Assembly (NCBI GenBank): GCA_029936815.1
Contig: JAPYRX010000002.1
Coordinates: 1 to 64,000, forward strand
DNA: 64,000 nucleotides
Direction of reading: 5' to 3'
Origin: Dehalococcoidia bacterium
GTDB taxonomy: Bacteria > Chloroflexota > Dehalococcoidia > Lucifugimonadales > GCA-002694895
Positions within the stretch are counted from its first letter, which is position 1. Each line of letters starts with the position of its first letter. The translations under genes and the position numbers were made by a program. The notes beneath the pieces were generated by a model. It had not been told where the DNA came from. It did no database searches and was given only the letters and a program-made list of their open reading frames with translations. Below are positions 14,410 through 44,644 of this stretch, piece by piece.

Positions 14410-15648
14410 TTGAAAAAATTAAAAAAACCAAATATATTTTATGGGTGGTACATAGTCATTGCAGGTACTTTTGCGATGTCTATATCTTCAGGTATTAATT
14501 TTCATGGCTTTGGTAATTTGTTTTTACCTTTATCTAACGAGTTTGGTTGGAGTAGAACACGGATATCTACGATTTTTTCATTGGCAAGATTAGAAAACGG
14601 AATTTTAGGCCCAATTGATGGCTTTTTAATAGATCGTTTTGGTCCGAGAGCAGTTATTTTAGTTGGCGTTCCTATAATGGGAATTGGTTATATATTACTT
14701 TCACAAATCAATGGATTTTTGTCATTTGCTTTAGTCTATATAGTAGGCGTAACGATAGGCGCAGGAACATTGCACACACCCATACAAACAGCAGTTGCTA
14801 ATTGGTTTAATAAAAAAAGAGGATTGGCATTTGGAATAATGTGGTCCGGAGTTGGGATTGGAGGGGTGATAGTTCCTTTATATGGATGGGGAATTCAATT
14901 ATTAGGATGGAGAGATACATCTATAATAATTGGTTTTATTGTGATGATAATCGGAATCCCTTGTGGATTGGTTATGAGACACAATCCATATAAATACGGA
15001 CAATATCCTGACGGATTAAAAGTCACTGAAAATGGATCTGATAAAAATGATTCTATTGTTACCCATTTCTCCCCAAAAGAAGCTTTGTTGTCATCAAGCT
15101 TTTGGCTTTTGTCATTATCTACAGGATTGAGGATTTTGGTTACTAGTGGAGTAGGGCTACATTTAGTACCTTATTTTGTAGATTTAGGGATTGACCCTGT
15201 TACTGCAGCAGCATTCGCAGGATCTGTTGGAGTTATAAGTATTCCTGGAAGGTTTGGGGTAAGTACTATTGGTGATTACATAAATAAAAAATATATATTG
15301 ATGATATCAATGTTATTACTTTCAATATCAGTATTTTTCTTGTCCTTTGTTGATAGTACCAGCGGAATAATAATTGCATTGATCCTTTATTCATTTTCTC
15401 AAGGAGGGAGCGCAGTTGTTCCTAATGCATTGATGGCTGATTATTTTGGTACGAAAAATTATGGAACTATAATGGGATTTAGAAGTATTGTAGTTACTTT
15501 TGGAGTTATATTAGGGCCTATAATTTCAGGGGCAACATTTGATAATTATGGCAGCTATCAGTTAGCATTTCTTGGGTTTTCGATCATAAATTTGGTAGCT
15601 TTTGTTATGTTGTTTTTCTCGAAATCTCCTGTGAAAATCAGTGTTTGA
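14410..15648 (+). CDS. major facilitator superfamily transporter (monocarboxylate/OFA-like)
   Basis: The 412 aa product has twelve predicted helices in two six-helix halves. The opening FYGWYIVIAGTFAMSISSG and GFGNLFLPLSNEFGWSRT match the OFA/monocarboxylate-type MFS subgroup, and DGFLIDRFGPRAV is the MFS loop 2-3 signature. Such carriers move small organic acids; the substrate is unknown. The start is TTG, one base after the sirtuin stop, with no ATG in frame before the first helix. The 3' end overlaps purH by 11 bases, tail to tail. Confidence 0.88.
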   Translation: MKKLKKPNIFYGWYIVIAGTFAMSISSGINFHGFGNLFLPLSNEFGWSRTRISTIFSLARLENGILGPIDGFLIDRFGPRAVILVGVPIMGIGYILLSQINGFLSFALVYIVGVTIGAGTLHTPIQTAVANWFNKKRGLAFGIMWSGVGIGGVIVPLYGWGIQLLGWRDTSIIIGFIVMIIGIPCGLVMRHNPYKYGQYPDGLKVTENGSDKNDSIVTHFSPKEALLSSSFWLLSLSTGLRILVTSGVGLHLVPYFVDLGIDPVTAAAFAGSVGVISIPGRFGVSTIGDYINKKYILMISMLLLSISVFFLSFVDSTSGIIIALILYSFSQGGSAVVPNALMADYFGTKNYGTIMGFRSIVVTFGVILGPIISGATFDNYGSYQLAFLGFSIINLVAFVMLFFSKSPVKISV

Positions 15649-40108: not shown

Positions 40109-40152
40109 TTTAAAGAGAGATTGATATTAGTGCTGACAACAAATGGACTGTT

Positions 40153-41004
40153 ATGTCTGTTGATACTCTGAATGAATATGTTGAACCAATTACTGAATTA
40201 TTTACCAAATATATAGATGGTGATATTTATTATTCAACATATGAGGAAAGTAATCATACTAGAACAACGGTTGAAATATGTGCGGAAGGTAATATAAACC
40301 AATCAGACTTTGAGTATGTATCAATAGGTGTTAAATTACTTGGAAATTTAGATGAATTAATTGATTTGACTGTAAAATATATATCTGATGAAGATTTGAA
40401 AATTTATTTCAATACTGTTTATGATCCTATAAAAATTGATTCGATTATGATTTATCCTGAAAATACAAATAATGATTTTAACTATTCATATTTTAATATG
40501 TTGATTAAGCCAGGATTAGGGTTTGGTACCGGAAAGCATCCTACAACAAAATTATGCCTAGAGCAATTGCAGAAAATTGACAACAAATTTGTTTTAGATA
40601 TTGGTACTGGTTCTGCAATATTAAGTATAGCTTCGTTTTTCTTTGGCGCTAGCAAAGCAATTGGATTAGATAGTGATGATATGGCATTAAATAATGCAAA
40701 ATATAATATTTCATTAAATAAACTAAATAGTAAAATCGAATTGATCAAATCAAGTTTTGAAGAATATCTAACAGGAAATTTATTTGACACAGTATATGCT
40801 AATGTTGGGGAATTTTTTTTACATGAGAATATTCAGATTATTTATGATTTAATAAAACCAAAAGGTAATTTAATTATATCTGGATTTAAAGAATCAAGAA
40901 GAAATAAAATTTACAAATTATATTCAAAGAATTTTAAAGTAATAGAATGTAAAAATGAATATGATTGGAGCTGTATGAGGTTGATGAAAAATGAAACAAA
41001 ATAA
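40153..41004 (+). CDS. prmA: ribosomal protein L11 methyltransferase
   Basis: The 283 aa product has a small N-terminal domain and a class I methyltransferase domain with the PrmA signature: GLGFGTGKHPTTKLCL near 122, then VLDIGTGSAILSIA near 146, and YANVGEFFL, where the usual motif is ANIL. It trimethylates L11. The family start K-W-x-x-x is seen just upstream of the ATG (codons for K-W-T-V), so the true start may lie slightly farther 5' at a rare codon. The end overlaps rsmE by 14 bases. Confidence 0.92.
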   Translation: MSVDTLNEYVEPITELFTKYIDGDIYYSTYEESNHTRTTVEICAEGNINQSDFEYVSIGVKLLGNLDELIDLTVKYISDEDLKIYFNTVYDPIKIDSIMIYPENTNNDFNYSYFNMLIKPGLGFGTGKHPTTKLCLEQLQKIDNKFVLDIGTGSAILSIASFFFGASKAIGLDSDDMALNNAKYNISLNKLNSKIELIKSSFEEYLTGNLFDTVYANVGEFFLHENIQIIYDLIKPKGNLIISGFKESRRNKIYKLYSKNFKVIECKNEYDWSCMRLMKNETK

Positions 41005-41749: not shown

Positions 41750-42733
41750 TTATACTTCACCGATAGTCTTTCTGATTAATGTTAATGGGTCTAATTCCTG
41801 ATGACAAACTTTTATCATAAGTTCTATAAACTCTGAATCATGTGACAAAGTATCAGATAAATTTTTCGCCCCATACAGAGTGTCTATTCCTTCTACGATG
41901 TTATTGATTTTTTCATTTATAGAACTTATAGAATTTCGTTCTCCAATTAATTGCCCCGCTCTTCTGTTTCTACTTAATGGGCTATATGAGGATGCTAACG
42001 TATCTCCTAACCCTGACAATCCACTTATAGTTAAAGGTTGAGCTCCTGCGTTCGTTGCTAATTTAACGATCTCACTGAATGCTATACTAATAAATGCCCC
42101 CTTTAAATTGTTACCCAATTGAAGACCATCACATATCCCGGCGCCTATGGTTACAATATTTTTTAGTGCTCCCCCTAATTCTACGCCTGTGATGTCATTA
42201 GAAGGATAAATTTTAAAATGCTTTTTTTCAAGAATATTTTTTAATGCCATAAAAAACTTTTGATTGTGAGTTGCAATTACTGTGCTAGTAGATTTTTTAT
42301 TGTATATTTCATTAGCTAAATTAGGTCCTGATATTACAGCAATATTTTTTTTAACGATTTGTGGTAATTCTTCAGATATCATTTCAGATATTCTTTTACC
42401 TGTTGTTTTTTCAATACCTTTAGAGGCAATTAGAATTTTATGATTAGGTTTTATATAAGGTTTGAGAATATTTAGGTTATGTCTAGTTGTCTGTGAAGGG
42501 AAAGTTAGAATCAATAAGTCAGATTCTGTTACCACTTTATTTGTATCAGATGATAATATGATATTATCTGACAATGAAATTTTTTGGTTAATTTTATTTG
42601 TTCTATTTTCAGATTCGTCTTTGGTTCTGCAAAGTATGGTGATTTGTGTGTTTTGTATAAGGTGTGATAGAGCTTGCCCCCATGTAGTATTTCCAATGAT
42701 AGCAATTGTTGATATTTTAAAATTTTCTTTCAT
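41750..42733 (-). CDS. gpsA: glycerol-3-phosphate dehydrogenase (NAD(P)+)
   Basis: The 327 aa product has an N-terminal Rossmann motif IAIIGNTTWGQALSHLI (the usual GAG is GNT), a catalytic Lys region LGGALKNIVTIGAGICDGL and SGLSGLGDTLASSYSPLSRN. It makes sn-glycerol-3-phosphate for phospholipids, the substrate of PlsY encoded just before it. The start overlaps the end of plsY by 17 bases. GNTTWG is an unusual form of the dinucleotide loop. Confidence 0.93.
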   Translation of the reverse strand: MKENFKISTIAIIGNTTWGQALSHLIQNTQITILCRTKDESENRTNKINQKISLSDNIILSSDTNKVVTESDLLILTFPSQTTRHNLNILKPYIKPNHKILIASKGIEKTTGKRISEMISEELPQIVKKNIAVISGPNLANEIYNKKSTSTVIATHNQKFFMALKNILEKKHFKIYPSNDITGVELGGALKNIVTIGAGICDGLQLGNNLKGAFISIAFSEIVKLATNAGAQPLTISGLSGLGDTLASSYSPLSRNRRAGQLIGERNSISSINEKINNIVEGIDTLYGAKNLSDTLSHDSEFIELMIKVCHQELDPLTLIRKTIGEV

Positions 42734-43307
42734 TATTATTAATTAATCTTTTAATATTTTCTTTATGCCTGAATAAAATTATAACCATTGTTGTAAAATA
42801 ATATACCAAATATTCAATTTCATATATTCCTAAAACAATAAATATTATGAATGGTATAAAAGAACTTATAGAACCAACTAAAGATCCAATAGATGCAGTT
42901 TTGGTTTTATAAATTAAAAACAATGATAATATTACAGGTATTAGTACTATTTCGTAAGCTATAGCTGAAAATGTACCAACCCCAGGAGCAATTCCTTTCC
43001 CTCCTTTAAATTTCAAGAATAAAGGGCAGCAATGACCTAATACTATCGAAGAAGAAGAAAGGGCTATTAACAGAGGATCTGTTATCATTTGACTTAGGAG
43101 TAAAATCGTAATGAACCCTTTACTATAATCGAAAAAAAATACAAATATACCTACTTTCAATCCTAATACTCTTGTCACATTTGTGGCACCCGTGGATCCA
43201 CTTCCAATATTGTGTAAATTTTTATTTGAAATGAATTTAGTTATTATGTATCCAAAAGGAATAGATCCAATCAGATAGCTAATTGTTATGTATATTAAAT
43301 AAGTTAT
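42717..43307 (-). CDS. plsY: glycerol-3-phosphate acyltransferase PlsY (start codon apparently AUA)
   Basis: Family homology runs through a full 196 aa: YLIGSIPFGYIITK, HNIGSGSTGATNVTRVLG, VFFFDYSKGF and GHCCPLFLKFKGGKGIA, the PlsY motifs that transfer acyl from acyl-phosphate. A GTG at 43178 would remove the first helix and the GSG motif. Between the upstream in-frame stop and YLIGSIP there is no ATG, GTG or TTG. ATA at 43307 has GGAGG five bases before it and overlaps the der stop as ATAA, the counterpart of the usual ATGA coupling. I therefore call AUA as start; an ATG-to-ATA sequencing error is the alternative. Confidence 0.82.
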   Translation of the reverse strand: MTYLIYITISYLIGSIPFGYIITKFISNKNLHNIGSGSTGATNVTRVLGLKVGIFVFFFDYSKGFITILLLSQMITDPLLIALSSSSIVLGHCCPLFLKFKGGKGIAPGVGTFSAIAYEIVLIPVILSLFLIYKTKTASIGSLVGSISSFIPFIIFIVLGIYEIEYLVYYFTTMVIILFRHKENIKRLINNNERKF

Positions 43308-44644
43308 TTTTTCCTCCGACTCCTGAAAAACAGCTTTATAATAACACCTTTATAATCAAATTTTTCTCTTATTACATTTTCTATATACCTTTTGTACGAG
43401 AAATGAACATAATTTGGATTGTTCACGGTAAACTCAAAGACATTTGGATATATTTGATGTTGCTTTATTCCATATATATGTAAAGTTTGGCCTGGTTTGT
43501 TTTTCGGAAGGTTTTGTGCGACTTTACTCATTATGAAATTGTTTAATTCATTTTCATCATGAATAATTTTAGATTTTTTATATATTTGGTTACATAAATT
43601 TATTAGATCAGTAATTTTAATTCCTTTTAATCCGGAAATGAATATTAATGGCGCATCTTTGAGGAATTTAAATTCTTCTCTTACTTTTTTTTCTATATCT
43701 TCATGATTTAAATTCCTCGATTTAATAAGATCTGACTTGTTTATTGCTACAATTATTCCATCAGTTGAATGTAAGACTGTTTTAATTATTTGAGCATCCT
43801 GATTAGTAGCTGGTTCTAAAGTATCAATTAGTAATATGCTTACATCTGAATCAGAAATATAATCAATTGCTTTGTTGACACTTACTTTTTCAATGAAGTT
43901 ATCGATTTTACCTCTTCTTCTTATACCTGGCGTGTCTACGATGTTATAGCTTTGATTAGAAACAACAATATCATAATCAATACTATCTCTAGTTGTGCCG
44001 GGGATATTACTAGTAATAGATCTTTTAGATCCGTGCAATTTGTTAAATAGTGTAGATTTTCCAGTGTTTGGCCTTCCTACTATAGAAAGTCGTATCTGTG
44101 TACTTATTTGATTTAATTCATTTTTAGATTTAGATGGTAGTTCAGCTAATATTTTATCTATTAGTAAATCTATATTAAGATTATGATAAGCACTTATTCC
44201 TATTATTTCATTAAATCCTAATTCGTAAAATTCGTTAACAAATTGTTCTTTATTAGAATTATCTATTTTATTTACTACTAATATTGATTTTTTATTTGAA
44301 TTTCTAACTATTTGTGCAACTTTCTTGTCTGTTGGGGCTATACCGTCATTTCCATCAGTGATCATTATAATCAGATCACAATTATTTAGTGAGAATTCTA
44401 TTTGTTCCCTTATATGATCTGAAAATTCGTCTAGTTGATCTTCTGAAAATCCACCAACGTCAGTTACGATTATTTTTTCATCATTAATATCAATTTCGCC
44501 ATTAATTCTATCTCTAGTTGTTCCAGGAATAGTGCTCACGATGGCTTTTTTCCTTCCTATCAGCCTGTTAAATAAAGTAGATTTACCTACATTTGGTCTT
44601 CCAATAAGAGCGATATTATAGTCGTTCAAACCAAATCCAATCAT
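43304..44644 (-). CDS. der: ribosome biogenesis GTPase Der (EngA)
   Basis: The 446 aa product has two tandem GTPase domains: GRPNVGKSTLFNRL (about 15-28) with TDVGG and NKID, and GRPNTGKSTLFNKL (about 189-202) with DTPGIRRRGK and NKSD. A C-terminal KH-like domain ends RSRRKK. Der acts in 50S assembly. Its last codons encode the Shine-Dalgarno GGAGG used by plsY. The start overlaps argF by 4 bases. Confidence 0.96.
   Translation of the reverse strand: MIGFGLNDYNIALIGRPNVGKSTLFNRLIGRKKAIVSTIPGTTRDRINGEIDINDEKIIVTDVGGFSEDQLDEFSDHIREQIEFSLNNCDLIIMITDGNDGIAPTDKKVAQIVRNSNKKSILVVNKIDNSNKEQFVNEFYELGFNEIIGISAYHNLNIDLLIDKILAELPSKSKNELNQISTQIRLSIVGRPNTGKSTLFNKLHGSKRSITSNIPGTTRDSIDYDIVVSNQSYNIVDTPGIRRRGKIDNFIEKVSVNKAIDYISDSDVSILLIDTLEPATNQDAQIIKTVLHSTDGIIVAINKSDLIKSRNLNHEDIEKKVREEFKFLKDAPLIFISGLKGIKITDLINLCNQIYKKSKIIHDENELNNFIMSKVAQNLPKNKPGQTLHIYGIKQHQIYPNVFEFTVNNPNYVHFSYKRYIENVIREKFDYKGVIIKLFFRSRRKK

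Follow-up and report, generated by a model that had tools for sequence, protein, structure and literature searches.

The plsY gene in a genus of Chloroflexota almost certainly begins, as far as comparison of the genomes can tell, at an AUA codon throughout the genus, a start of the already known AUH class (AUA, AUU or AUC) that overlaps the stop codon of der in an unusual ATAA. We consider it very probable that plsY of the genus is translated from this codon (43307-43305, minus strand), at low output and with the aid of a Shine-Dalgarno (SD) sequence and of termination on der. The window, which is the whole stretch of 64,000 nucleotides that was analysed, is contig 33 of 35 (genome size 1.46 Mb, 31% GC), and the host genus is probably marine. 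The features on which the argument turns are the following, with positions in the window.

40126..41004, plus strand: prmA, with a probable AUH start (ATT, 40126-40128) placed by comparison of five species
41750..42733, minus strand: gpsA (glycerol-3-phosphate dehydrogenase), which follows plsY and whose ATG start overlaps the plsY end
42717..43307, minus strand: plsY read from ATA, 196 aa with fMet as residue 1, matching TIGR00023 at 153.2 bits
43176..43178, minus strand: GTG, the first canonical start codon that the plsY frame offers, not accepted as its start
43304..44644, minus strand: der (EngA GTPase), stop TAA at 43306-43304, matching TIGR03594 at 460 bits
43305..43307, minus strand: predicted start codon AUA, which together with the der stop forms ATAA (43307-43304), at the same place in five of five species
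43308..43312, minus strand: A-run spacer (AAAAA) between the SD and ATA, six A with A43307
43313..43317, minus strand: SD sequence GGAGG with a 5-nt spacer, inside the last codons of der

The plsY frame is bounded upstream by an in-frame TAA at 43352-43350 and is open from 43349 down to its own TAA at 42719-42717. A scan of the frame upstream of the GTG at 43178-43176 for ATG, GTG and TTG found none of them, leaving near-cognate codons only, and the GTG lies 43 codons downstream of the ATA at 43307-43305. The original prediction had held that the homologous protein extends about 43 residues upstream of the first GTG and that no canonical start exists in the region needed, and both the frame scan and the scores against TIGR00023, the PlsY equivalog profile with a cut-off of 137.2 bits, agree with it. 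The ATA-started protein lies above the cut-off, with the profile covering 6-192 of 196, whereas the GTG-started protein scores 100.1 bits, below the cut-off, and the profile is matched only from 48. Since a start at the GTG would also lose the first transmembrane segment (TM1) and the GSGSTGATN motif, it was rejected. When the ATA-started protein, whose predicted N-terminus is (fM)TYLIYITISYLIGSIPFGY..., is aligned with the Aquifex aeolicus PlsY structure 5xj5, residue 4 falls on residue 5 and the lengths agree. The start thus placed overlaps the der stop as ATAA, as had been predicted, with support from the profile, the protein length and the recurrence of the codon described below.

The GGAGG that had been noted five bases upstream of the ATA is indeed at 43317-43313. 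Its duplex with the anti-SD has an energy of -9.5 kcal/mol; the 40 open reading frames (ORFs) of the window that start at ATG have a median of -2.15, and 2.5% of them have an SD as strong. The geometry is that of a stop-start overlap, in which the start shares bases with the stop of der and the SD lies within der. The start of der itself is probably TTG 44629 (minus strand) and not ATG 44644, as it aligns with TTG in two congeners (G003 and G004) and with ATG in two others (G001 and G002). Changes in the initiation machinery were considered as causes of the unusual codon and rejected. An altered anti-SD is contradicted by the normal GATCACCTCCTTT in the 16S of congener G004, and a degenerate IF3 appears excluded by the good alignment of the IF3 of the window's genome with solved IF3s. 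An altered initiator tRNA was rejected on the evidence of congener G003, whose initiator tRNA carries the CAT anticodon together with the GGG/CCC stem; an initiator tRNA was not found in the genome of the window, whose assembly is incomplete, and the verdict rests on that congener.

Conservation was assessed across the five available species of the genus (G000 to G004, where G000 is the genome of the window), every one of them a metagenome-assembled genome and G004 containing many N. Two named records of Chloroflexota metagenome-assembled genomes in the same genus, PAHZ01000012.1 (Chloroflexi bacterium NAT190) and CATLOZ010000053.1, appear to be G004 and G001 again and were not added as extra species. 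The junction reads GGAGGAAAAAATAACT in G000, GGAGTAAAAAATAATT in G001, GGAGTAAAAAATAACT in G002 and GGAGAAAAAAATAGAA in both G003 and G004. ATA stands at the homologous position in five of five species, each with GGAG, six nucleotides and then ATA, and none has a usable canonical start; the single canonical codon that occurs, a TTG at plsY codon 8 in G004, is too far inside. The same ATA thus recurs when der-plsY junctions of independently assembled congeners are compared, and a normal start elsewhere in these homologues, which would have told against the original prediction, was sought in the genus and not found. In G001 and G002 there is an in-frame TAA two codons upstream of the ATA, so that plsY could not start further upstream without leaving the frame. 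The overlap is ATAA in G000 to G002, where der ends in TAA, and ATAG in G003 and G004, where it ends in TAG.

How much the conservation of the codon itself says about selection is limited. Between species (the G001/G002 pair left out), plsY, der and gpsA are identical at only 0.21-0.49 of their four-fold sites, and synonymous sites are saturated outside that pair. However, the third base of the ATA is limited to A or G by the der stop, and ATA is found throughout in 8 of the 75 columns that have isoleucine in all five species. Codon conservation is therefore modest evidence that selection keeps AUA. A stronger point than codon identity is that there has been no reversion to ATG, though a TGA der stop would survive such a change in G000 to G002.

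The likeness to ATGA coupling proposed originally is borne out by relatives at exactly this junction. In the order's other families plsY likewise comes after der, with its start usually at the same spot and often in an NTGA overlap: ATGA at four loci (L012, L015, L017 and L025), GTGA at two (L016 and L019) and TTGA at three (L011, L020 and L026), while others have TAATG or a nearby ATG. A locus from another family of the order (L035, genome G058) has CTGA, and its plsY is apparently started by CTG. Distant bacterial plsY homologues have ATG, GTG or TTG at the homologous position in nearly all cases. The ATAA could have come from an ATGA ancestor by a single substitution of A for G, turning TGA into TAA and ATG into ATA at once, and the TAG stop of G003 and G004 would be a later change; this order of events is proposed from the junctions as they stand rather than from a tree reconstruction. 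A loss of the TGA stop or of RF2, which would have forced ATGA to become ATAA, was rejected, as TGA ends 11 of the 56 longer ORFs of the window and prfB is present.

One alternative is that PlsY is never separately initiated and arises only as a fusion to Der, through a -1 frameshift at the stretch of six or seven A that GGAGG would stimulate. The stretch, a candidate for the slippery heptamer X XXY YYZ, stands directly before the der stop in five of five species and plsY is in the -1 frame of der, but we regard this explanation as improbable. AAA-AAA lysine codons are expected anyway in an AT-rich genome, and the sister families, which have NTGA and lack the A-run, give plsY its own start at this position. 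Stimulators of -1 frameshifting are typically spaced by 10 nt or so, and the GGAGG, which is at initiation spacing, is too close. Moreover, the N-terminus of PlsY is extracytoplasmic, and a 446-aa Der domain attached to it is implausible. It is just as improbable, in our estimate, that plsY starts slightly downstream at another near-cognate codon, such as ATA 43295, ATA 43289, ATT 43283 or CTG 43274. Near-cognate codons are abundant in the frame, but only ATA 43307 is conserved across the five species in both codon and SD spacing, and starts at the later ones would cut into TM1.

The genome of the window contains five PlsY-family genes (on contigs C33, C8, C13, C24 and C9), and more than one copy is commonly present in members of the order. 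The der-adjacent copy could in principle be a paralogue in decay, its start already lost, while the others do the work. This is very improbable, since the der-adjacent copy is the best family match of the five (147.5 bits) and lies above the PlsY equivalog cut-off, the order der-plsY-gpsA is kept, and plsY is intact and without stops in five species at saturated synonymous divergence. That an ATG was misread as ATA is least likely of all, with next to no chance of being right despite the metagenomic origin of every genome and the many N in G004, since five species share the ATA within differing flanking sequence, as expected of a real inherited weak start, and since in G003 and G004 the next base is G, so that an ATG would also abolish the der stop.

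Returning to initiation at the AUA, we propose that the strong GGAGG in the last der codons would bring the AUA into the P site of the ribosome, to pair there with the CAU anticodon of fMet-tRNA at two of three positions. Ribosomes finishing der would already be positioned at AUAA and may re-initiate on plsY; we infer this coupling from the geometry of the junction. The weak start would attenuate PlsY synthesis and link it to that of der, and PlsY output would probably be sensitive to IF3, like that of infC, which is also AUA-started here. Starts of the AUH type are discriminated against by IF3, which controls infC in E. coli (cited in PMC13009471). The G-to-A change in the ancestral ATGA would have been kept while at least five species diverged. 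In S. aureus, the AUA and AUU starts of infC, ccpN and cvfC1 have strong SDs (Kohl et al., PMC13009471), and the rare starts with an extended SD that were tested in reporters gave about 10-30% of AUG (PMC13009471). In E. coli reporters, AUA is reported to reach 1% of the AUG level at most (Hecht et al. 2017, cited in PMC12864459), which would be a very low output for an essential enzyme and counts against the AUA reading; the four other PlsY-family genes of the genome may carry the load.

The AUA start does not appear to be unique to plsY in this clade. The homologous start codon of infC is ATA at 26, ATC at 6 and ATT at 2 of the loci of the order (34/34; L118, at about 2022 on the minus strand, L119-L148 and L209-L211; counted by eye from the output), which shows the clade to make use of AUH starts. 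No canonical codon lies within 12 codons upstream in 26 of the 34; in G000 alone an in-frame ATG stands four codons before the infC start, and it is absent from the congeners. For prmA the start is probably ATT 40126 and not ATG 40153, judging from the alignment, in which the codon is ATT, ATA, ATA, ATC and ATT in G000 to G004, 8 nt after AGAG or GGAG. An in-frame TAA lies just upstream and G001 and G002 are without a nearby canonical start; relatives in the order have ATG or TTG nearby.

A survey of 411 reciprocal-best orthologue pairs (about 0.70 Mb of G000 against 0.77 Mb of G004) returned plsY, prmA, uppP and polA as pairs that lack a canonical start in both genomes and have a rightly placed AUH codon; with infC added, the pattern is found in 5 of 411 (~1%). 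uppP (G000 contig C24, 72104-72967, minus strand) has ATA in G000 and G002 and ATT in G004, and polA (G000 contig C13, 80553-83384, minus strand) has no canonical start in G000, G003 and G004 and ATG in G001; with fewer species and weaker SDs, their AUH starts are less certain than those of plsY, prmA and infC. The survey is evidently sensitive, as it recovered other causes of a missing start, the prfB frameshift and a probable selenocysteine gene. Most candidates from a coding-score survey of one genome were spurious, and the orthologue pairs were used instead; a genome scan for GGAGG-N4-8-ATA was uninformative (243 matches against 232 in the reversed control). It is conceivable, though on balance we doubt it, that the five genes form an IF3-responsive set on AUA, AUU and AUC starts through which the IF3 level would co-set envelope-lipid and translation-related enzymes, all of them missed or truncated by standard gene callers.

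Several other observations were made in the same genome. The programmed frameshift site of prfB (AGGGGGCGTCTTTGA) is kept at contig C13, 33083-34123 (plus strand), and is conserved in G004. An AhpD/peroxidase-related gene (TIGR01926; contig C8, about 14631-14966, plus strand) has an in-frame TGA at CEY(TGA), also found in G004, and a selB homologue is present, which makes the gene a probable selenoprotein. Two ORFs of contig C8 (84806 and 91347, plus strand), which resemble small cupins by eye, read TAG at positions that are TGG (Trp) in their G004 orthologues, and may be pseudogenes, errors or cases of readthrough. A Nudix-like ORF on contig C24 (44168-44536, plus strand) has an apparent frameshift near its N-terminus in G000.

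Natural AUA starts have been proven for very few bacterial genes, and an essential-type lipid gene with a genus-wide AUA, to which a single mutation of an ATGA overlap gave rise along with a new stop codon, would show how weak starts arise and persist. Gene callers restricted to ATG, GTG and TTG are predicted to truncate PlsY here to a protein without TM1 and the catalytic motif. A search of open-licence papers found no literature on an AUA start of plsY. The closest known case is infC, with AUU in E. coli and AUA in S. aureus, the latter demonstrated by Ribo-Ret (PMC13009471), which likewise combines a rare AUH start with a strong SD and conservation across species. However, the infC product, IF3, regulates its own gene, while PlsY is a membrane acyltransferase and the plsY AUA shares bases with the stop codon of the preceding gene. 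The AUA of ccpN and the AUU of cvfC1 in S. aureus are also conserved non-canonical starts with an extended SD, but in different genes, and a stop-start overlap is not described for them in the available portion of the source (PMC13009471). The geometry is that of the ATGA and NTGA coupling overlaps, which the sister families have at the same junction, and the genus differs from these in having ATAA or ATAG, a near-cognate start and a der stop of TAA or TAG. Changing ATG to ATA in a functional gene still gives protein, at up to 5-fold lower levels (PMC12864459); that change was a laboratory SNP, whereas the ATA of plsY is fixed genus-wide.
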